This document shows positions 1,139 through 27,365 of a DNA stretch of 30,144 bases, one piece after another. The notes beneath the pieces are model-generated. The model was not told the origin of the DNA. It saw only the letters and a program-made list of their open reading frames with translations, and did not search any database. This DNA is from a virus: the IMG/VR virus record IMGVR_UViG_3300026256_000007, positions 1 through 30,144 of that record, one strand, 5' to 3'. The translations under genes and the position numbers were made by a program. The stretch's first letter is position 1. Every line of letters begins with the position of its first letter.

Positions 1139-1903
1139 ATGAAACCTACTAACGTATTATTTTTTACACCAGTTAAAGAACTTGAAGAAACTATACCTCC
1201 TGTTCCAGCCAGTGAGTTTTGGCCAGAGTGGTTTCGGAAACAACAACCTAAAAGAGATCATAATCAACATGCTTGGTCTACTGTAAAAAGTTGTCCAGGA
1301 GTAATGGATATACTTAATATGGGATATATTATTCCATTATGGTGCGATTATAAAGTTACTAAAGTAAGATCACCGGATATGCGTGGTGATCTTAATCCGG
1401 AAACAGCTTCTAGTCAAACTGAACAATTAATGATAATAACTCCGCAAAACTTAAATCAAGCCGGCCGACCATTGTTTAGTGCCGCCACTCATCCATATGA
1501 ACAGATTGACAATTATCCTTTTAGAGAAAATCAATGGAAAGGAGGATTAAAGTTTCAAATGCCTTGGGAAATTAAAACAGATCCAGGATACAGTTGTTTA
1601 ATAACTGCTCCCTTTTATCATAGACAACATAATTTGGAAGTGTTAACAGGATGTGTTGATACTGATTATTATCATGAAATGCACGTTAATACATTCTTTG
1701 AATCTAAAGTGGACGAAGAGATATTGTTCGAACGGGGTACGCCGTTATGCCAAATAATTCCGTATAAGCGTGAAGAATATAAAATGGAAACTGCTGTAGG
1801 TGATTACAGAACCAAAATTAATCGTCTTACACAATGGATTCATAATTCTATGTTTGCACCGCAACATTATAGAAAAAAACTTAATCAACAAAGATACAAA
1901 TAA
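1139..1903 (+). CDS. Hypothetical phage protein, 254 aa
   Basis: The gene starts 2 bases after the oxygenase stop, with GAGGAAT as a likely ribosome-binding site. The product is rich in tryptophan, proline and aromatic residues (for example SEFWPEWFRKQQP and PLWCDY) and looks like a soluble globular protein without a signal peptide. I do not recognise a catalytic motif. It ends one base before a convergent minus-strand gene, so any terminator must lie within coding sequence. Confidence 0.8.
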   Translation: MKPTNVLFFTPVKELEETIPPVPASEFWPEWFRKQQPKRDHNQHAWSTVKSCPGVMDILNMGYIIPLWCDYKVTKVRSPDMRGDLNPETASSQTEQLMIITPQNLNQAGRPLFSAATHPYEQIDNYPFRENQWKGGLKFQMPWEIKTDPGYSCLITAPFYHRQHNLEVLTGCVDTDYYHEMHVNTFFESKVDEEILFERGTPLCQIIPYKREEYKMETAVGDYRTKINRLTQWIHNSMFAPQHYRKKLNQQRYK

Positions 1904-11279: not shown

Positions 11280-11309
11280 TTGGTTTTTACTCGTCTGGAT
11301 AAATATACT
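11280..11309 (+). promoter_or_regulatory. Promoter region of the synthetase-like gene
   Basis: TATACT at 11304-11309 lies 6 bases before the ATG at 11316, the same spacing as the three leaderless promoters, with a weaker TTGGTT -35 match at 11280-11285 (18-base spacer). The overlapping ATAAATA at 11299-11305 is also a late-type core, so early, late or dual use is possible. Confidence 0.5.
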
Positions 11310-11315
11310 TTTAGT

Positions 11316-12506
11316 ATGTTAAGAGTTGATAAAAATACTAAAAATCACAACAAAACACCAACCCACACCATTACTGACACCTATACTGATGTAGCACTTG
11401 TAAAGCTAATGACTGATGCTTTAGAAGGAAGTACAGAAGATTATAGAGTTAGAATACCAGACTGGGATGCCACAAGGTGCTGTCATTGGGAAACAAGTAT
11501 TAAAAAAATCAATCATTGGGATACTTTAAACTTCAATTATATACCGGAAACGGATACATTTAACTTTAATAAAAGGAGCTTCCACGTAATGACCCAGTTA
11601 ATAAATCCAGAACAATACACTAGTACCGTCGGCCGTTTAAGGTCGTTTTTTTTGGACCAAGGATTTCACGAAGTCCATACACAAAATAGATTAAGCATAC
11701 TTGCCGCATGTGAAGACCCAACCACAGTGAGTACATATAACTATGCTGGCAATGTTTGGCCGCTACCGCAAACAGGCCAGATGTGGCTAGAATACGAACT
11801 GCTTACACGCCCTTCATCGAAGGGCTTTTTTTGTGTCTCAACATCCTATAGACAAGAACCTAACCCAGTTCCAGGGCGCCATGATTTAATATTTCCAATG
11901 TTTGAATTTGAATTTCCAGGAACTGTTGCAGACCTTGAAATTATGAATAAAGAGCTTACAGAACACATGGGCTTTGGTTCAAACCCTGTAGCTAAAGACT
12001 ACTTGGAATGGGCTAAGGATTTTGATACTAAAGAATTAACACACAAAGATGAAGAAGCAATGTACGACAAGTATAAAGATCGTGTGTGTATGATTAAGAA
12101 TTTTCCAAACTATACTAGTCCTTTCTGGAACATGAAACAAAACGGTGACGGAACTGCGGCTAAGATCGATGTTATTATAGCTGGACAGGAAACAATAGGC
12201 TCAGCTGAACGTAGTAGCGATCCGGAAGAAATGAAGCACATGTTCCACACTATTAGTGACGGACAGTATGCTGACTTGCTATACGGACAGTTTGGTAAGG
12301 AACGAGTAGAAGCAGAACTAAATGAATTCTTAAGTTACGATTTCCAACCTAGAGTAGGAGGGGGAATTGGAATGACTAGAATGATACGTGCTGTTGAGGA
12401 ATATAAGAAGATTGCTCCTCCAAGTATTAGAAAAGGTAGACCATATCGTGTAGGAAGCAAAAACTTTAAAAGTAGTTTTTTAAACGCACACGGTATACCT
12501 CAATAA
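11316..12506 (+). CDS. Class II aminoacyl-tRNA synthetase-like protein (AsnRS/AspRS catalytic core, no OB domain)
   Basis: With the start at 11316 the protein has 396 residues. Residues from about 100 match the class II core of AsxRS: a motif 1 helix (RLRSFFLDQGFHEV), motif 2 (STSYRQEP ... GRHDLIFPMFEFE), an IIAGQETIGSAERSSDPEEM segment like the AsxRS amino-acid pocket, and motif 3 GGGIGMTRMIRA. The N-terminal OB-fold anticodon-binding domain is absent; about 90 unrecognised residues replace it. It resembles AsnRS-derived asparagine synthetases of archaea, so it may make asparagine or charge a tRNA. An internal ATG at 11589 with AAGGAG at 11573-11578 could start a 305-residue form. A tRNA follows 7 bases after the stop. 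Confidence 0.75.
   Translation: MLRVDKNTKNHNKTPTHTITDTYTDVALVKLMTDALEGSTEDYRVRIPDWDATRCCHWETSIKKINHWDTLNFNYIPETDTFNFNKRSFHVMTQLINPEQYTSTVGRLRSFFLDQGFHEVHTQNRLSILAACEDPTTVSTYNYAGNVWPLPQTGQMWLEYELLTRPSSKGFFCVSTSYRQEPNPVPGRHDLIFPMFEFEFPGTVADLEIMNKELTEHMGFGSNPVAKDYLEWAKDFDTKELTHKDEEAMYDKYKDRVCMIKNFPNYTSPFWNMKQNGDGTAAKIDVIIAGQETIGSAERSSDPEEMKHMFHTISDGQYADLLYGQFGKERVEAELNEFLSYDFQPRVGGGIGMTRMIRAVEEYKKIAPPSIRKGRPYRVGSKNFKSSFLNAHGIPQ
11809..11832 (+). terminator. Perfect intrinsic terminator inside the synthetase-like coding sequence
   Basis: GCCCTTC (11809-11815), loop ATC, GAAGGGC (11819-11825) and seven T (11826-11832) form a textbook rho-independent terminator. It lies in frame within the synthetase, just before motif 2. 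Ribosomes translating the gene would cover it; without close coupling, transcripts would stop here and not reach the tRNA. Confidence 0.7.
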
Positions 12507-12513
12507 GTTATGA

Positions 12514-12619
12514 TCCGGGGTGATGGAACTTGGTAGACATGGTAGACTGTTTATCTACTGCTTGGGAGAGTTTACGGCCCTTCCCTGGCGTGCTCGTTCG
12601 AATCGAGCCCCCGGAGCCA
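12514..12619 (+). tRNA. Atypical type II tRNA with anticodon GUU (Asn) and a leucine-like body
   Basis: All arms fold. Acceptor TCCGGGG (12514-12520) pairs with CCCCGGA (12609-12615); discriminator G12616; CCA is encoded at 12617-12619. The D stem is ATG/CAT with a tRNA-Leu-like loop (GGAACTTGGTAGA). The anticodon stem GTAGA/TCTAC encloses loop CTGTTTA, giving anticodon GTT at 12549-12551. The T stem GCTCG/CGAGC has loop TTCGAAT. The variable region is 33 bases (12559-12591) with an internal GGGA/TCCC stem, longer than usual for type II tRNAs. Anticodon, G73 and the UCC...GGA acceptor are asparagine-like; D-loop and long variable arm are leucine-like. T at position 37 is unusual. It directly follows the AsxRS-like gene. 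Confidence 0.85.
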
Positions 12620-15172: not shown

Positions 15173-16251
15173 TACATCGTATATAAACTTCCAAACTTTG
15201 TACTAACTGCTTCTGAAAGTTTAACTTCCTCTTGTTTATGATAACCATAGTCACTAAGTTTATTCTGTAAAAATAGTTCAACCATTGTAAGTAGTCCTGA
15301 CGCTGTTGTTAACTCGATAGCTGTAAACAATCTACCATTTAACTTTTCAGGATAGAATATTTTCTTATATATGCGTTCTGTATGATTGCTATTAACTATA
15401 CCACTAACTGTAATAAAGATAATAACACAATCTTGTTTTGTACTAGACACTCCATGTTTAATAATATTAATTAAATCTTTCTTAGGTATTTTTAAATCAT
15501 TCATTAAAAAATCTATATAATCATGATGTCCTACCCGCCTAATAGTTTTATAATTTACATTTGCTTCTGAATAACGTGGATCGTTAATAACAGTATCTAC
15601 AAATGATCCTAATCCGCCACTTGTATTAAATGCTTCGTATTCTGTACCATCTATTAACAATGTTTCGTAATCTGTAAGTGTTGGCACTTCATTTAACTGC
15701 CCATCACGTATAACTTTACAATTACCACAGTATTCATTTATTAATCCGTCTGCACTCCAAGAAAGATGATACTTTAATTTGTTAGTAGCGTTCTGTGATA
15801 AAGCTCCTACTCTTATTTTAACTTCATTTACTTTTGTATAATCGTGTGCTAAGTCATTTGCAATAACTGTACTCATACCTGGTGCTAATCCACAATGTGG
15901 CATTGTAAATGGTAGTTCTTGTTCTTGACTTTGTATAAAGCTATTAAGCTCTGAATCTTCTGAGAAATCAAAGTATGGAATGTTTTCTTTTAAACATGCA
16001 TTATATATAACCATATTTTCGGTATATGGTAATGCATTAATAACTAATGTCTTATCTCTTATTAATTGTTCAAGTGTTGAGCTATTAGTACCAGGGTGCC
16101 TAGTATCTATTTGTGCATAATCTTCTAACGGGATACCTGTAACAGACCCACGTATGTCAGCTACTGTAACGCTGTATTCTGTACGATCTTTTAAAAGATG
16201 ATATACTGCATTACCTATAGATCCGCCACCAAATATAATAATTTTATTCAT
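15172..16251 (-). CDS. Saccharopine/lysine 6-dehydrogenase-like oxidoreductase
   Basis: ATG at 16251 is preferred over an upstream TTG because AAGG precedes it. The 359-residue protein starts with a Rossmann motif, IIIFGGGSIGNAV, and contains PHCGLAPGMSTVIAND, IRVGALSQN, WSADGLINEYCGNC and FNTSGGLGSFVDT, all typical of the saccharopine dehydrogenase family and closest by eye to lysine 6-dehydrogenases. Those enzymes oxidise lysine (or saccharopine) to aminoadipate semialdehyde with NAD(P). Neighbouring proline dehydrogenase and aldehyde dehydrogenase genes make an amino-acid catabolic role likely. Exact substrate cannot be assigned. Confidence 0.8.
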   Translation of the reverse strand: MNKIIIFGGGSIGNAVYHLLKDRTEYSVTVADIRGSVTGIPLEDYAQIDTRHPGTNSSTLEQLIRDKTLVINALPYTENMVIYNACLKENIPYFDFSEDSELNSFIQSQEQELPFTMPHCGLAPGMSTVIANDLAHDYTKVNEVKIRVGALSQNATNKLKYHLSWSADGLINEYCGNCKVIRDGQLNEVPTLTDYETLLIDGTEYEAFNTSGGLGSFVDTVINDPRYSEANVNYKTIRRVGHHDYIDFLMNDLKIPKKDLINIIKHGVSSTKQDCVIIFITVSGIVNSNHTERIYKKIFYPEKLNGRLFTAIELTTASGLLTMVELFLQNKLSDYGYHKQEEVKLSEAVSTKFGSLYTM

Positions 16252-16258
16252 ATTGTAC

Positions 16259-17104
16259 TTACCTTGCAAAAAGTTCCTTTATAACATTTACCCCAACAAA
16301 TTTAAGAGTCTTAAATTCAGATAACCTACGTATTACATAAGGCATCCAATCTGCGCCATATGGTATATAAGTTCTTACTGAGTAGCCTTCGCCAATTAAT
16401 CTTTTTGCTAAGTCCCTTCTAATGCCAAAAAGCATTTCAAAATAGAACTTTTGTTTGCCACCGTATTGTTGGGACAATTTTTTTATATTTTCAATAATAT
16501 ATTCATCGTGTGTTCCTAAAGATACAAGTTCTTGCTTATAATCTTTATGATAAAAATATCCGCTTTTGAAAATGTCTTCTACTATATTTAGATAATTTTT
16601 TCTAATATCCTTCATGTTTCTGATATCACCTTTGTATGCTCCTTTACAAAGTCTAACTCTAGTATAACTTTCCATAGCCTTTTCCATATCAGTACCTGAA
16701 CGTTGCATATTAGCTTGTAATACAATACCTACATCATTAAAACAACGGGAAAACTTTAATGTATCGTCAATAGTTGATTCCGTTTCCATATCAAATTTAA
16801 TTTTAATTTTTGGAGTATCTTTTATTGCATCAATTATTGTTTCTACGGGCTCTTTCCATAAGTATGGTGCATTACCAAATTGACTTAATTTAATTGATAT
16901 TTCGTATTCTCTAAACAATACTGACTTTAACTTGTAAATTAGATACAAGTATTTTTGTAAGTTAGCTTGAGCTATACAAGGTGCAGTAGCACTTTCGCCT
17001 ACATAATTAATCGTAACAAGATCGTATTGTCTAATATTACTTAACATAGACTCTACATTATCTCCTGCTATAAATCTTTTAGCTAACGGATATAATAGTT
17101 TCAT
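16259..17104 (-). CDS. Proline dehydrogenase (PutA-type, monofunctional)
   Basis: The 281-residue protein has the PRODH barrel motifs: IVLQANMQRSGTD near residue 127, RLCKGAYKGD at 151-160, SLGTHDEYI, and YFEMLFGIRRDLAKRL with VRTYIPYGADWMPYVIRRLSE near 240-265, which hold the flavin and substrate carboxylate. It oxidises proline to pyrroline-5-carboxylate and passes electrons via FAD to quinone. Length fits monofunctional PRODH. It overlaps the Coq4-like gene by ATGA and precedes the lysine dehydrogenase-like gene, so all three are one translational unit. Confidence 0.9.
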   Translation of the reverse strand: MKLLYPLAKRFIAGDNVESMLSNIRQYDLVTINYVGESATAPCIAQANLQKYLYLIYKLKSVLFREYEISIKLSQFGNAPYLWKEPVETIIDAIKDTPKIKIKFDMETESTIDDTLKFSRCFNDVGIVLQANMQRSGTDMEKAMESYTRVRLCKGAYKGDIRNMKDIRKNYLNIVEDIFKSGYFYHKDYKQELVSLGTHDEYIIENIKKLSQQYGGKQKFYFEMLFGIRRDLAKRLIGEGYSVRTYIPYGADWMPYVIRRLSEFKTLKFVGVNVIKELFAR

Positions 17105-17577
17105 TTGATATCTCGCTTAAGGTGACTTAATTCGTTGTCCATAATTCCAAATTCTAATTGGATTTCTTTTAGTGGAACATCTAAATTATACTTCGACCAG
17201 TCAACTTCGCCTATACGATTAGTATTTCTTGAACTGCCATATTTAAAACCAACATCAAATATTTCTATTTGTGCTTTAGTAAATCTATTCTTTTTTGGAT
17301 ATAGGAAGCGTGAAATAAATTTAAAGAGCTTTACTTCCCATGGTTTAATTCTGTCGTCAGTACCCATTGTAAAACCAATAACAAATGCTTCTTCATCGTT
17401 TGACTGACCGCATTCTAGTAATACATGTATAGCATCATGATCTTTTAAAGATGCCGAACCGTGTAGATGAAATGGTGATTTTGGATTCTCTATCAACCAT
17501 ATCATAAACGATATATCTTTTTGTTCTACAGTACTATAAGTGTTAATAAACTTTTCATACTCATACTGAAAAGTCAT
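17101..17577 (-). CDS. Coq4-like protein
   Basis: The 158-residue protein contains H47-D-A-I-H51 followed 12 residues later by E63, which matches the HDxxHx11E metal-binding signature of the ubiquinone-biosynthesis protein Coq4. The surrounding helices (AFVIGFTMGTD and the PWEVKLFKFISRFLYPKKN region) also fit. Coq4 acts in the oxidative decarboxylation of the quinone head group. The gene directly precedes proline dehydrogenase, a quinone-reducing enzyme, with a 4-base overlap. GGGGCAACG precedes the ATG. The call rests on one motif and fold-like context, so it is moderate. Confidence 0.6.
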   Translation of the reverse strand: MTFQYEYEKFINTYSTVEQKDISFMIWLIENPKSPFHLHGSASLKDHDAIHVLLECGQSNDEEAFVIGFTMGTDDRIKPWEVKLFKFISRFLYPKKNRFTKAQIEIFDVGFKYGSSRNTNRIGEVDWSKYNLDVPLKEIQLEFGIMDNELSHLKRDIK

Positions 17578-17587
17578 AGCGTTGCCC

Positions 17588-17866
17588 CTACGCTAAAAAC
17601 ATCTTAGCTATTCCAAAAAGTGTTATGCACACTACAATAATATTTAACAAAAGTAAATTAATACTTTTTCGTAAATAAGCATTTATAGAATGTAAAAGAG
17701 CACCCGAGAGCGTGAATAAAAATACAATAAAGACTGGTGTATCATCACCAAACCACGCCATGATTAAATAGACACTTATGAAACAACATGCTCCGACTGT
17801 TTCTACTATTAATCTAAATCTATGATCTTGCCAATCATCAACCACCCACTCTCGGATGCTTTTCAC
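17588..17866 (-). CDS. Three-helix membrane protein (GTG start)
   Basis: GTG is the start, with AGGGGT 8 bases upstream. After a charged head (MKSIREWVVDDWQDHRFR), three hydrophobic helices follow (about 20-38, 43-60 and 70-90). Shape and size recall small phage membrane proteins; transport or holin roles are unproven. It sits between the secreted proteins and the Coq4-like gene. Confidence 0.6.
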   Translation of the reverse strand: MKSIREWVVDDWQDHRFRLIVETVGACCFISVYLIMAWFGDDTPVFIVFLFTLSGALLHSINAYLRKSINLLLLNIIVVCITLFGIAKMFLA

Positions 17867-17884
17867 TTCAGTACCCCTAAGAAA

Positions 17885-18259
17885 CTATACTCCTGTGCCT
17901 TTAGGTGTAAACAGTTTAACACTATTACCACCAACTATGCAAGACAAATTTTTGTGCTTATATTTAAATATAATAGCCCATTGATCATTATTTGGATTAA
18001 TCCACATTTCAACAGTTATTAACTCTTTATGAAACTTGTTGTGTACTAATCCTCTAGCGGCAACTCCCATCTGATAACTTTCAGTTGCCATCTTTGTAAT
18101 GTTCTCATGGGTATCACAATACGTAAGTATAGCGTCTAATTTCTGTAACTTATGTTCTTCAGCTGTACTTGGTGTACTGTAAGCAAAATAAAATATTATT
18201 GCCATAAGCACAAACAATAAAAATAATTTAATATTAGTATTTGATTTCTTTCTCTTCAT
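17885..18259 (-). CDS. Membrane-anchored periplasmic protein, 124 aa
   Basis: The N-terminus (MKRKKSNTNIKLFLLFVLMAIIFYFAYS) is a positively charged signal anchor. The rest is a small domain with a WINPNNDQWAIIFKYKHK strand pair and cysteines near 48 and 107. The ATG overlaps the stop of the thioredoxin-fold gene, implying joint translation and a periplasmic partner role. Confidence 0.6.
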   Translation of the reverse strand: MKRKKSNTNIKLFLLFVLMAIIFYFAYSTPSTAEEHKLQKLDAILTYCDTHENITKMATESYQMGVAARGLVHNKFHKELITVEMWINPNNDQWAIIFKYKHKNLSCIVGGNSVKLFTPKGTGV

Positions 18260-18984
18260 TAATTTCTTCCCTGCATTAAGTCGTCCGTTCCTGGACTAAT
18301 TGCCATTGAACACGGCATCCAAACATTCTCTTTAGCATGGAAATGAATATTAGATCCACACTTTAAATACTTAGCCGCCAACAATGCATCTTGTGGTGTG
18401 TTGTATGTATGATCAAAAATATTATCTGACTGTACTACTACACCCGGACGTTTAAAAGGTTTATTATGACTAGAGTTTGGATCCATTCTAGGATCTTGCG
18501 GTGCTTCTTTACGCAACTCTATCCTTGCATCTGGAATGTCTTCACCATTCTTACTCCATTGCTCATTATCTGATTTACCAAGAAATACTTCTCCGTCTTT
18601 ACCAAACAGATCTAAATTTGCATTTACGTATTGATTAATAATATCATAAAAACGTTCCTTGCCTGGATACCCAACAAACTTATATAGTTCGGTATCGTTT
18701 TGCCAAACTATAAAGGTTGGTGTTCCTCTAATCTGGCTAATACGTTTATCTCTATATGCTCGATCATACCAGTCTGGTACAGGTTGATCCATATCGATAA
18801 CTCGTAATGGTAATAGCTTTCCAACTTTTGAATCAGAATATGTTGGTGCTACTTCTTTCAAAAAACTTTGACAGTATCCACAATGTGGATTACTAAACAT
18901 TAATAATTCTGGATTGCCTATTGCTTGTGAAGGAGTAGCAAAAAGGATTGCTAACCCTACTACAAGTAGTAGAAGTTGTTTCAT
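18259..18984 (-). CDS. Secreted thioredoxin-fold protein fused to a DUF3721-like tail
   Basis: A cleavable signal peptide (MKQLLLLVVGLAILFATPSQA) is followed by a thioredoxin-fold domain with CGYC at residues 35-38 and the cis-proline segment GTPTFIVW near 96-103. The C-terminal part (about 195-230) carries C209-G-S-N ... W-M-P-C225, the CxxxH...WMPC-like pattern known as DUF3721. It would act in the periplasm as a thiol-disulfide exchanger. GGGGTATAAG precedes the ATG. It lies between aldehyde dehydrogenase and the Coq4-like gene group. Confidence 0.75.
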   Translation of the reverse strand: MKQLLLLVVGLAILFATPSQAIGNPELLMFSNPHCGYCQSFLKEVAPTYSDSKVGKLLPLRVIDMDQPVPDWYDRAYRDKRISQIRGTPTFIVWQNDTELYKFVGYPGKERFYDIINQYVNANLDLFGKDGEVFLGKSDNEQWSKNGEDIPDARIELRKEAPQDPRMDPNSSHNKPFKRPGVVVQSDNIFDHTYNTPQDALLAAKYLKCGSNIHFHAKENVWMPCSMAISPGTDDLMQGRN

Positions 18985-19007
18985 CTTATACCCCTTTAGG
19001 TTAAGTG

Positions 19008-20531
19008 TTAGTCTTCGATTTGAGCTTTTTGTAAAGTTCCGCTATAGTCTACAAAGACTGATTTCCACTCAGTGCAATTATCAATCATGTTGTGTCCTGC
19101 TTCACGATGCCCGTTTCCAGTTCCTTTGGTCCCTCCAAATGGTAACTGTATTTCAGCGCCGATTGTTGAAGAATTAATATATGTAATTCCAGTATCAATT
19201 TCGTTAAGGGCTCTAAAGGCAAAATTTACATTCGCCGTATAGACTGCGGCCGATAACCCGTACTTAGAATTGTTAACCATATCAATAACTTCATCGGTCT
19301 CGTTAAATGATATAATTGCTACTACAGGACCAAATACTTCTTCCTGAGCTATCATATCATGTACATCTACATCTGTAATAACTGTTGGCATATAAAACCA
19401 ACCGTATGTTTCTGTAAACATTCCATACTTCTCTGGAATCTTACTAGATGGTTGTTGATTAATCGTTCCGCCACATAATAAAGTATTAGTAGCACTAGCT
19501 TCTGTAACCATCATATGAATCTTGTTTAATGCTTTTTCATTAATAACAGGCCCCATTTGTACTTTAGCATCTAAGCCATCACCTACCATTAACGATCCTG
19601 CACGTTTAACAAGTTTCTCTGTAAACTCTGCTTTAACGCTTTCGTGTACAAATACTCTTGAACATGCTGTACAACGTTGTCCTGTTGTACCAAATGCTCC
19701 CCACACAACTCCATCTACTGCTAAATCAATATCAGCATCTTCCATTACAACGATTGCGTTCTTACCACCCATTTCTAATGAGTAAGGTTTCATTTGCTCT
19801 GCACATCTAGTTGCTACTTGATGACCTGTTATAGTAGATCCTGTAAATGATATCATCATAACATCAGGATGATCTACTAACGGTTGTCCTGCTGTTGGAC
19901 CATAACCTGTAACTACATTAAATACTCCCGCAGGTAATCCAGCTTCTTCAAATACCATTGCTAGTCTTAATACACTTAGTGGTGTATCCTCTGCAGGTTT
20001 AATAACCATTGTGTTACCTGCTACTAAGGCAGGGAAAGCCTTCCATGACGGAATTGCTATAGGAAAATTCCAAGGAGTGATTGCTCCAATGACGCCAAGT
20101 GGCATCCTCATGGACATACAAAACTTATCATTCAGTTCTGATGGAACAGTCTTTCCTCCTAATCTCCGACCTTCACCTGCCGCATAGTATCCCATGTCAA
20201 TTGCTTCTTGAACATCACCGCGGGTTTCAGATAATGGTTTACCCATTTCTTTGGTCATCATTTTTGCTATATCTTCTTTATCTCGTACTAGTATTTCTGC
20301 CGCTTTAAATAATATCTCACCACGTTTTGGTGCTGGAATCTTTTTCCAAGTTCTAAATGCTCGTCGAGCTTCTTCTACAGCTTTGCTTATATCTTCTTCG
20401 TTACTGTCTTGAACAGTTGCTAATACTTTTGTACAATGAGCAGGATTAGTGACTTCAAACGTCTTACCTGAGGCTGAGTCTACCCATTGGCCACCAACAT
20501 AGTTTTTATATTGAGTTGTTCCTATTTCCAT
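19008..20531 (-). CDS. NAD(P)-dependent aldehyde dehydrogenase (semialdehyde type)
   Basis: The 507-residue protein is a complete ALDH: TPWNFP near 152-157, FTGST near 229, the general base E253 in SLEMGGK, catalytic C287 in GQRCTAC, EEVFGPV and [16 protein letters not shown] near the end. The tail [21 protein letters not shown] resembles ALDHs of amino-acid catabolism in several bacteria. In this setting glutamate-semialdehyde (from proline) or aminoadipate-semialdehyde (from lysine) are the obvious candidates. AAAGGGGTG precedes the ATG. A hairpin and a late-type core lie upstream. Confidence 0.93.
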
Positions 20532-24002: not shown

Positions 24003-24031
24003 ATAGTAGCATAGTTGCTCGTGCTTGTCAA
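24003..24031 (-). promoter_or_regulatory. Early sigma70-type promoter
   Basis: TTGACA (24026-24031) and TACTAT (24003-24008) on the minus strand, 17-base spacer. It lies directly downstream of the AAA+ gene terminator. Confidence 0.8.
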
Positions 24032-24052
24032 TCGAGGCTTCAGCCAAAAAAA

Positions 24053-24094
24053 ACCCCCTGGAATCAAGTCGAGGGCACAACTCTACCAGGGGGT
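24053..24094 (-). terminator. Intrinsic terminator after the AAA+ ATPase gene
   Basis: ACCCCCTGG (24053-24061) and CCAGGGGGT (24086-24094) pair perfectly over 9 bases with a 24-base loop, and eight consecutive T follow on the minus strand. A classic rho-independent end. Confidence 0.8.
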
Positions 24095-24148
24095 CGACCC
24101 CAATACACCGGGGCCTATCAGTACTTACGGAGCTCTGATTGAGGGCAG

Positions 24149-25153
24149 TTAGCTTCGACGTAGTACTGTATTCTCAGCCATTGCTTGCCAATTGCTTGGA
24201 AATGCTTTAGCCAAGTCTGCTACTTTGAGCACCGTTCTTAACGATAGCTCTCGTAATCCCTTCTTGTTAATGTCGATGAAATCTACTACTTCCTGATGAA
24301 CCTCTTCTGGAAGGTTATGTTCCTTCAGCATACCATCACCAACGATCTGTTTAATACGTAACATCTTCTCCCTCTCCGTATCAATTGTGAGATCGATATA
24401 ATGACATCTGCTCTCGATAGCCAATAAGTGATCCCTCAGCTTCTTGCTCTTGACGTGTTCGAACTTAATATTAGTTATGAAGATTGCACTACCCTTAAAC
24501 TCAAAGTGATCCGGAACACCCTCGTTTCGCAATTTAAATGAATCTGTATTCCAACATATTCTTCGTGACTTCTTTGAATCCAAAGCCGCTTTGAGTATGT
24601 TCAAACTCAGGTCATCCTGTAGAACACTATCGCAATCATCGAATACTAAAACGTTATCCTTGTCGGCGTAGTTGAATAGTTTACAGTACAAGCCGATGGC
24701 GCTCATTGCACCTTTGACAAACTCGAACTTCTTTGGTCGGCCGTCGTTGGCTATGTCGTGTACAAGATCGTGTTTGTTGAGTACTTTCTCAACGCCGAAG
24801 CTCTTACCAACTCCTGGAGGTCCAGTAACGATCATTGCACGTACTGTTCCTTTCTTACAAGCCTTAGTCATATCCTCAAGGATCTCAAATCGTTCCCTTA
24901 AACGATCGACTGTCTCCTCGTCCGTTTCTTCTCGCTTAGTTGTTTTGGATTTGGTACGTTCGTAATCCTGGGGACCATCGACTTTGATCTTAATGTTACG
25001 ATCTGGAAAACCTGCAATTGCTTTCCCGTCGACTGTTACGTAACCTCCCTGGGCTCCCACCTTGTAGTCTTCTACTAGTGGAAATACCATTCCAGCAAGT
25101 TCTACGTCCTTGCCTCTTATTTTGTATACGCCTGATTTGATTTTTATTTGCAT
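24149..25153 (-). CDS. AAA+ ATPase
   Basis: The 334-residue protein has Walker A GPPGVGKS at 111-118, Walker B VLVFDDCDS near 175, sensor 1 (AIFITNIKFE) near 229 and an arginine-rich second region (LRDHLLAIESRCHYIDL). The N-terminal 100 residues form a separate beta-rich then charged helical region. It resembles AAA+ proteins of marine myoviruses with unclear targets; it is not an obvious clamp loader. GAGGGCAATCACAAC precedes the ATG, and a promoter lies at 25208. A strong terminator follows. Confidence 0.85.
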   Translation of the reverse strand: MQIKIKSGVYKIRGKDVELAGMVFPLVEDYKVGAQGGYVTVDGKAIAGFPDRNIKIKVDGPQDYERTKSKTTKREETDEETVDRLRERFEILEDMTKACKKGTVRAMIVTGPPGVGKSFGVEKVLNKHDLVHDIANDGRPKKFEFVKGAMSAIGLYCKLFNYADKDNVLVFDDCDSVLQDDLSLNILKAALDSKKSRRICWNTDSFKLRNEGVPDHFEFKGSAIFITNIKFEHVKSKKLRDHLLAIESRCHYIDLTIDTEREKMLRIKQIVGDGMLKEHNLPEEVHQEVVDFIDINKKGLRELSLRTVLKVADLAKAFPSNWQAMAENTVLRRS

Positions 25154-26259: not shown

Positions 26260-26531
26260 TAAGCATCCTCCCCGTAGTAGCCGTAGTCTTCGTCAGTACC
26301 GAATCCAGCTGACGCCATCGCACTATCGTGGTCACCGTCCATGCTGTCGTCGTACTCGTCGTCTTCCTGGAAGCGTGATGATAATTCGTTGCAATCCATC
26401 ATGTCTGCAACGTCGTCCTCACTCATGTACTTTACGCACATGGTAACGACTTCTTTCGGATCCAACAAACCCTCTTCGATCATCTCTAAGAGCTTGTTAG
26501 TTTCTTGTCTTGCTATTGTTCCTATTGTCAT
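26259..26531 (-). CDS. Acidic hypothetical early protein, 90 aa
   Basis: A helical N-terminus (TNKLLEMIEEGLLDPKEVV, then DDVADMMDCNEL) is followed by a highly acidic tail rich in Asp, Gly, Tyr and Ser. Acidic phage early proteins of this sort may mimic nucleic acid or bind host proteins, but nothing specific is visible. GAGGGCAAT precedes the ATG. Confidence 0.65.
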   Translation of the reverse strand: MTIGTIARQETNKLLEMIEEGLLDPKEVVTMCVKYMSEDDVADMMDCNELSSRFQEDDEYDDSMDGDHDSAMASAGFGTDEDYGYYGEDA

Positions 26532-26561
26532 ATTGCCCTCGTTTGTTTAGTTTATACATAC

Positions 26562-26590
26562 ATAATAGCACCAAAATGCTCGTATGTCAA
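26562..26590 (-). promoter_or_regulatory. Early sigma70-type promoter
   Basis: TTGACA (26585-26590) and TATTAT (26562-26567) on the minus strand, 17-base spacer, with CGG upstream. Confidence 0.83.
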
Positions 26591-26612
26591 CCGAAAAGAT
26601 TCTTCAATGATA

Positions 26613-26765
26613 TCAATGACTTAGAACAACTGCAACATCGCTAGTCTCTCTCACTAGGAAAGTAGCTAACTCATTGATATTACTGCGGATTAATTCGATG
26701 ACTGTGGGGTCCTGGTAAGCAAGGACGCCTACTACCCCTATTGTGATTCCAAATAAGATTTGCAT
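26613..26765 (-). CDS. 50-residue membrane-anchored peptide
   Basis: AGGAGGCGAA precedes the ATG. MQILFGITIGVVGVLAY is a membrane anchor, followed by a helical tail (IELIRSNINELATFLVRET) and a second short hydrophobic stretch. It has its own promoter at 26799. Confidence 0.6.
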   Translation of the reverse strand: MQILFGITIGVVGVLAYQDPTVIELIRSNINELATFLVRETSDVAVVLSH

Positions 26766-26798
26766 TTCGCCTCCTAGTTGAAGTTCTTAATTGTTTAT

Positions 26799-26827
26799 AG
26801 TATAGCAAAGGATTCGGAGATTGTCAA
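26799..26827 (-). promoter_or_regulatory. Early sigma70-type promoter
   Basis: TTGACA (26822-26827) and TATACT (26799-26804) on the minus strand, 17-base spacer, CGG upstream. It starts 26 bases after the RNA element at 26853. Confidence 0.83.
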
Positions 26828-26852
26828 CCGAAAAATAAAGAAAAGATTAGGT

Positions 26853-26945
26853 GGAGCGGGCGGCCTCGTATACACCTGGTCGATCGACCGCCCTACTCCG
26901 AGAATCAGTTCCGCTCTACCATTGAGCGGTAAGTCACTGATTCTC
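26853..26945 (-). ncRNA. Two-hairpin structured RNA with a tRNA D-arm-like loop
   Basis: On the minus strand the first hairpin begins at the stop codon of the upstream gene: GAGAATCAGT pairs with ACTGATTCTC over 10 bases (26936-26945 with 26900-26909), enclosing a second stem CCGCTC/GAGCGG with loop AATGGTA, as in a tRNA D-arm. The second hairpin pairs GGAG and GGGCGG with CCGCCC and CTCC (26888-26899 with 26853-26863). A pyrimidine-rich stretch (TCTTTTCTTTATTTTT) follows. It could be a terminator, a processed small RNA or a tRNA mimic; no complete tRNA folds. Confidence 0.6.
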
Positions 26946-27279
26946 AAGCTTCTACAGACTCAGCTTCTTCCTTAACGAAATCGTTAAGTGCCTTATCTTG
27001 TGGCTCTGTCACAGCTGGTTTAGAAACCTTTACATTCCTTACAACAAACTCAGCGATCGCTGACTGCGATGCTTCATCCTGGAATTTCTCGTGGGTTGAT
27101 AGAAACTTACATACGTCGCCCTTACTCATTGAGTTTGGCAACTCAAGGATGTTCACATCTGTGTGACCATTCTTAGTAAGAATTTTGAATCGACCTACAT
27201 AATCGTTCGCGAAACGAACTTTGGTTTTGCCGTTTGAAGTTGAAACTCCTGCTACGGTATACATTTTAGTGGTACTCAT
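26944..27279 (-). CDS. Hypothetical early protein, 111 aa
   Basis: Beta-rich N-terminal half (MYTVAGVSTSNGKTKVRFANDYVGR and FKILTKNGHTDVNILELP), then a helical region and an acidic tail (KEEAESVEA). Similar proteins seem common in T4-like cyanophages by memory; no function known. AAGGAGG precedes the ATG. The stop codon forms the base of a structured RNA. Confidence 0.7.
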   Translation of the reverse strand: MSTTKMYTVAGVSTSNGKTKVRFANDYVGRFKILTKNGHTDVNILELPNSMSKGDVCKFLSTHEKFQDEASQSAIAEFVVRNVKVSKPAVTEPQDKALNDFVKEEAESVEA

Positions 27280-27336: not shown

Positions 27337-27365
27337 ATTATAGCAAGGTTTGGCCGATTTGTCAA
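27337..27365 (-). promoter_or_regulatory. Early sigma70-type promoter
   Basis: TTGACA (27360-27365) and TATAAT (27337-27342) on the minus strand, 17-base spacer. Confidence 0.85.

Follow-up and report, generated by a model that had tools for sequence, protein, structure and literature searches.

Structured RNA at the 3' ends of messengers

Structured RNA domains in bacterial 3' untranslated regions (3' UTRs) have been called highly unusual, and regulation of upstream genes by a structured 3'-UTR RNA is known in a phage (PMC2864571). The L17 downstream element is one such domain (PMC2864571). Among bacteria and phages, structured 3'-UTR domains are rare and mostly uncharacterised.

Beside tRNA genes of phage T4, including tRNA-Arg, lie rnaC and rnaD (species 1 and 2), two stable RNAs whose role is unassigned. 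Phage lambda carries sib, a retroregulation element located 3' of int, which is probably the phage case alluded to in the 3'-UTR literature. Sib is structured, directly follows an early gene within a transcript that extends beyond it, and is tied to a terminator.

The element described here is also a structured domain in a 3' UTR. It differs from the L17 downstream element (PMC2864571) in gene, host, and fold, and it has no Rfam match. Its place directly after an early phage gene recalls sib, and its transcript would presumably also continue beyond it; unlike sib, it has no terminator adjacent to it, a sequence relation to sib is not expected, and nothing points to RNase III cutting. The element matches no described family. 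Its kind, a structured phage 3' UTR, is already known.

The locus and its genomic setting

The window is the whole stretch of DNA that was analysed, 30,144 nt of IMG/VR record IMGVR_UViG_3300026256_000007. It comes from an uncultured marine phage. The closest named relatives of its helicase and AAA gene, at ~50% identity, are the PA5oct-like giant Pseudomonas phages, so the window probably represents a large phage of the PA5oct-like general type. On the minus strand between 23813 and 29211, most small early genes have a near-consensus sigma70 promoter of their own, and terminators are few. Several of these promoters share the block CTTTTCGGTTGACA, including those at 26590 and 23841. The features around the element are as follows, in the direction of transcription.

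27337-27365, minus strand: promoter TTGACA-17-TATAAT, which would drive the 111-aa gene and the element (consensus scan, 12/12)
26944-27279, minus strand: 111-aa gene of unassigned function, with the element as its 3' UTR (ORF list)
26900-26945, minus strand: hairpin 1 (fold; covariation with the relative L001; identical in the relative L101 apart from the stop codon)
26853-26899, minus strand: hairpin 2 (fold; covariation, with 5/16 pairs changed on both sides in L001)
26831-26844, minus strand: interrupted T-rich stretch TTTTCTTTATTTTT, starting 8 nt past hairpin 2 and not a canonical terminator tail (sequence)
26799-26827, minus strand: promoter TTGACA-17-TATACT of the next transcription unit (consensus scan, 11/12)
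26613-26765, minus strand: next ORF, 50 aa with a hydrophobic N-terminus (read from the sequence; a homologue lies 3' of the element in L001)

The 111-aa gene belongs to a family conserved across about 130 viral contigs. Searches of its protein against PHROG, Pfam, and NCBIfam gave no match. A search with the 50-aa ORF returned no relatives and carries little weight because the query sequence was approximate.

The element is a structured RNA on the minus strand, from 26945 to 26853. This is the sense strand of the 111-aa gene, whose stop codon TGA (26946-26944) overlaps the start of the element, and the loop AATGGTA can be read on this strand only. The end of the element is followed by 25 nt and then by the strong sigma70-type promoter of the next unit. 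Because that promoter lies downstream, the element belongs to the transcript of the upstream gene. The messenger of the next unit would begin past it, so the promoter positions leave the 111-aa gene as the only one whose 3' UTR it could be.

Fold of the element

The outer stem of hairpin 1 is 10 bp long and perfect (GAGAATCAGT/ACTGATTCTC, 26945-26936 with 26909-26900). The hairpin further comprises a 6-nt bulge on the 5' side (GACTTA, 26935-26930), a 6-bp inner stem (CCGCTC/GAGCGG, within 26929-26911), and the 7-nt loop AATGGTA (26923-26917). Hairpin 2 is GC-rich, with the stem GGAG(T)AGGGCGG.../...CCGCCCGCTCC and a loop containing GGTGTATAC. The two hairpins abut with no spacer. A preliminary description had named the 10-bp perfect stem, the inner 6-bp stem with its AATGGTA loop, and the second GC-rich stem, and all are present. 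Pairing of UGGU in loop 1 with ACCA of hairpin 2 was considered and dropped; it comprises 4 bp only, and its place is not kept in L001.

The minus strand folds at -46.5 kcal/mol, compared with a mean of -28.0 for shuffled sequences (z -5.55), and none of 200 shuffles is as stable. The plus strand folds at -41.4 kcal/mol (z -4.78). Among 100-nt windows along the whole minus strand of the window, the element ranks second in stability, after the terminator at 24045-24144.

Relatives and covariation

Homologues of the 111-aa gene were found at at least 80 listed viral loci (19 in the first search) and at two loci from genome collections. Two of the homologous loci carry the element. L101 is contig DLYY01000068.1, filed under a Bacteroidetes MAG, and across 105 nt its element differs from that of the window in the stop codon alone. 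The coding stretches nearby are identical as well, so this identity is weak evidence on its own. L001 (IMGVR_UViG_3300020478_000004) is more distant, with a 111-aa protein homologue that is 83% identical. Both hairpins stand at the same place in L001, with stems very different in sequence, together with two further hairpins. A 16-aa ORF, MGQIINEILIALTSLI, lies right after the next promoter in L001 (4690-4785) and L101 (1596-1704) and is absent from the window.

A first covariance model, R1, built on a MAFFT alignment, was poor and was replaced by R2, made from the window and L101. R2 finds L001 unaided at the homologous place, with E=0.005 in 243 kb. The same search of 243 kb returned nothing outside the element itself, its fourth row being the window's own opposite strand. 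When L001 is included in the R2 alignment, 96.8% of cells are paired and both sides are changed in 14 of 32 pairs, counts that are biased towards the structure because a covariance alignment is fitted to it. None of 500 shuffles pairs as well, and structures slid along the sequence pair at 36-50%. In an independent neutral simulation of hairpin 1, P is about 0.002 when pair retention is scored and 0.003 when energy is. The preliminary description had proposed compensatory base changes in relatives as a test of its reading, and L001 has them.

In L001, the gene-sense strand folds at -50.4 (z -4.9). The antisense strand folds at -36.4 (z -3.2) and loses the outer stem of hairpin 1, owing to G-U pairs. 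The fold is thus intact on the gene-sense strand only, which indicates that the gene-sense RNA is under selection. The short unpaired stretches GACUYA, AUGGU, and GGURUAU are common to both lineages. The element is therefore a real structured RNA whose fold is conserved through compensatory change in two lineages, and the earlier view that it has more structure than a simple terminator is upheld.

The independent lineages are two: the window with L101, and L001. A third was found neither in a further set of loci nor in 15 whole records. DNA patterns run across the collection returned L001 and two unconfirmed matches only. Of these, L104 is a chance match within repetitive DNA, and L192 was not recovered by the covariance model. 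Phage records searched for the element and for the 111-aa protein gave no match.

The region after the 111-aa gene in other phages

The slot 3' of the 111-aa gene homologue was surveyed at 59 loci, with near-duplicates mostly removed. It holds a terminator at 29 loci, as called by a simple script rule, tRNA genes at 15, and neither at 15; a tRNA and a terminator together occur at none of the 59. The terminators mostly lie 6-40 nt past the stop codon, often with a TTGACA promoter immediately after. The tRNAs are tRNA-Leu(UAA), Arg(UCU), or Met, at a distance of at most 450 nt, and no terminator was called in any of these 15 slots. The window, L101, and L001 are among the 15 loci with neither.

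Several of the tRNA-bearing sister phages also have a GC hairpin between the stop codon and the tRNAs. In L007, L008, and L028 it overlaps a promoter-like TTGACA site upstream of the tRNAs. L010, L012, L013, and L033 have a hairpin upstream of the tRNA genes with an invariant 10-nt loop, AGCGGTGGGG, and varying stem sequences; this is another candidate structured RNA. In L006 (4075-4220, the same in L011), an elaborate fold of 145 nt (-48 kcal/mol, z -3.6) separates the 111-aa gene homologue from the tRNAs.

Proposed function

The reading that we favour, at about even confidence, is that the element is a lineage-specific, cis-acting structured 3' UTR that sets or protects the messenger 3' end within a readthrough early transcript. 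Early transcripts would start at the promoter at 27365 and traverse the 111-aa gene. No terminator is called between the stop codon at 26944 and the promoter at 26827, and transcripts would presumably extend beyond the latter. Hairpins 1 and 2 would form where the coding region ends, and they most likely define or shield the messenger's 3' end. The double hairpin could block 3'-5' exonucleases. The long GC stems, the single-stranded GACUUA bulge, and the AUGGU loop could also be sites at which a nuclease of the host or the phage binds or cuts. An element backed by covariation, in a slot that elsewhere holds a terminator or tRNAs, offers a direct way into the question of how early messengers of large marine phages acquire their 3' ends when terminators are absent.

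The main rival is a stable small RNA of ~95 nt, cut from the 3' end of the early messenger and acting in trans on host or phage targets. A stable RNA of ~90 nt is possible. The two tightly packed hairpins and the short conserved unpaired stretches, present in both lineages, would suit such an RNA; sister phages carry stable RNAs, namely tRNA-Leu, Arg, or Met, in the slot, much as T4 carries its two beside tRNA-Arg. The trans-acting reading is nonetheless unlikely, since no promoter other than that of the gene is seen upstream of hairpin 1 and the element is restricted to its lineage. The T4 RNAs are also of another size, R2 has no match in their region (L111), and the slot of this phage has no tRNA. 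A broader form of the proposal, which we regard as rather unlikely, is that the element founds a new family of phage non-coding RNA. Its members would be discrete two-hairpin RNAs liberated from a conserved early gene's 3' UTR and acting in trans on host translation or RNA decay, in a slot filled, depending on the marine phage lineage, by tRNAs, a terminator, or lineage-specific structured RNAs such as the AGCGGTGGGG-loop hairpin. Unless a discrete RNA is demonstrated, the element would change general knowledge only modestly.

Next in rank is an unusual or weak terminator, in which hairpin 2 and the T-rich stretch 8 nt further on would stop part of the transcripts. The element resembles an intrinsic terminator in position: canonical terminators fill 29 of the 59 homologous slots, and a GC-rich hairpin is followed by T-rich DNA. 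It differs in having two hairpins, an internal bulge, and no U-tract directly after the stem. ACCTAATC separates the stem of hairpin 2 from the Ts, and neither the terminator scan nor the slot survey called a terminator at the element or found a T run 0-3 nt from the stem. L101 has a 10-nt insertion within the T-rich stretch, while its hairpins are unchanged. The Ts may be part of the promoter, since the block CTTTTCGG-TTGACA is also seen at others. Hairpin 1 and its conserved bulge would be superfluous to termination, and at 24045-24144 this phage has a canonical terminator with a run of eight Us. We accordingly regard partial termination as doubtful.

That terminator follows the AAA gene (24045-24149, minus strand) and is itself elaborate, with the stem ACCCCCTGG.../...CCAGGGGGT, eight Ts, and an upstream hairpin whose stem gives way to a different paired one in L001. 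A second copy of the element was considered at 24031-24149, where a GGTGTAT loop is alike. The likeness is due to chance; L001 has ATTTAGTT instead, and the site is the canonical terminator.

Read as DNA, the perfect 10-bp inverted repeat is a palindrome and might serve as a protein-binding site, an origin, or a mobile repeat, but this is highly improbable, as it occurs once in the window and in none of 14 related records, and some of the changes in L001 give G-U pairs, which are tolerated in a sense-strand RNA alone.

Least probable is the reading of the element as a degenerate tRNA gene or as a decoy derived from a tRNA, which is largely refuted. The preliminary description had likened the loop to a tRNA D-arm. 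A 15-nt match, GCTCAATGGTAGAGC, to a tRNA D-arm is indeed present, and sister phages hold tRNA clusters in the slot, but the L001 counterpart is CCTCT-ATGGTG-AGAGG, which keeps the stem-loop and not the D-arm sequence. An Rfam search of 26500-27000, proposed earlier as a check, matched no family at E<=10, tRNA (RF00005) included. ARAGORN calls no tRNA at the element, which has neither anticodon nor T-arm, and Rfam 15 covariance models give no gathering-level match on L001 or L101. The hairpins in sister phages lie upstream of intact tRNAs and do not replace them. The element is not a tRNA, the suggestion of a tRNA remnant is not supported, and nothing was found in support of an RNA decoy.

Other observations in the window

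A proline dehydrogenase, an aldehyde dehydrogenase, and a saccharopine-dehydrogenase-like protein are encoded close to one another at 15175-20531 on the minus strand. These are metabolic genes in a phage, and the cluster perhaps serves proline catabolism.

On the plus strand, 11280-12506 encodes a class-II synthetase-like protein (Pfam tRNA-synt_2) with weak likeness to AsnRS, AspRS, and AsnA. Directly after it, at 12513-12619, is an uncalled tRNA with the acceptor stem TCCGGGG/CCCCGGA, the anticodon loop CTGTTTA (GUU, Asn), a very long variable arm, a perfect T-arm, and a GCCA end. A long variable arm is unusual in tRNA-Asn. Relatives here are L107 (tRNA at 2431-2517), L108 (tRNA at 1395-1481, minus strand), and L106. 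In two relatives the synthetase recurs at 65-67% identity, and next comes a tRNA-Asn(GUU) that is callable and also has a long variable arm. These features point to a possible conserved, phage-borne pair of an Asn-type synthetase and tRNA-Asn(GUU), which may merit more attention than the two-hairpin element.
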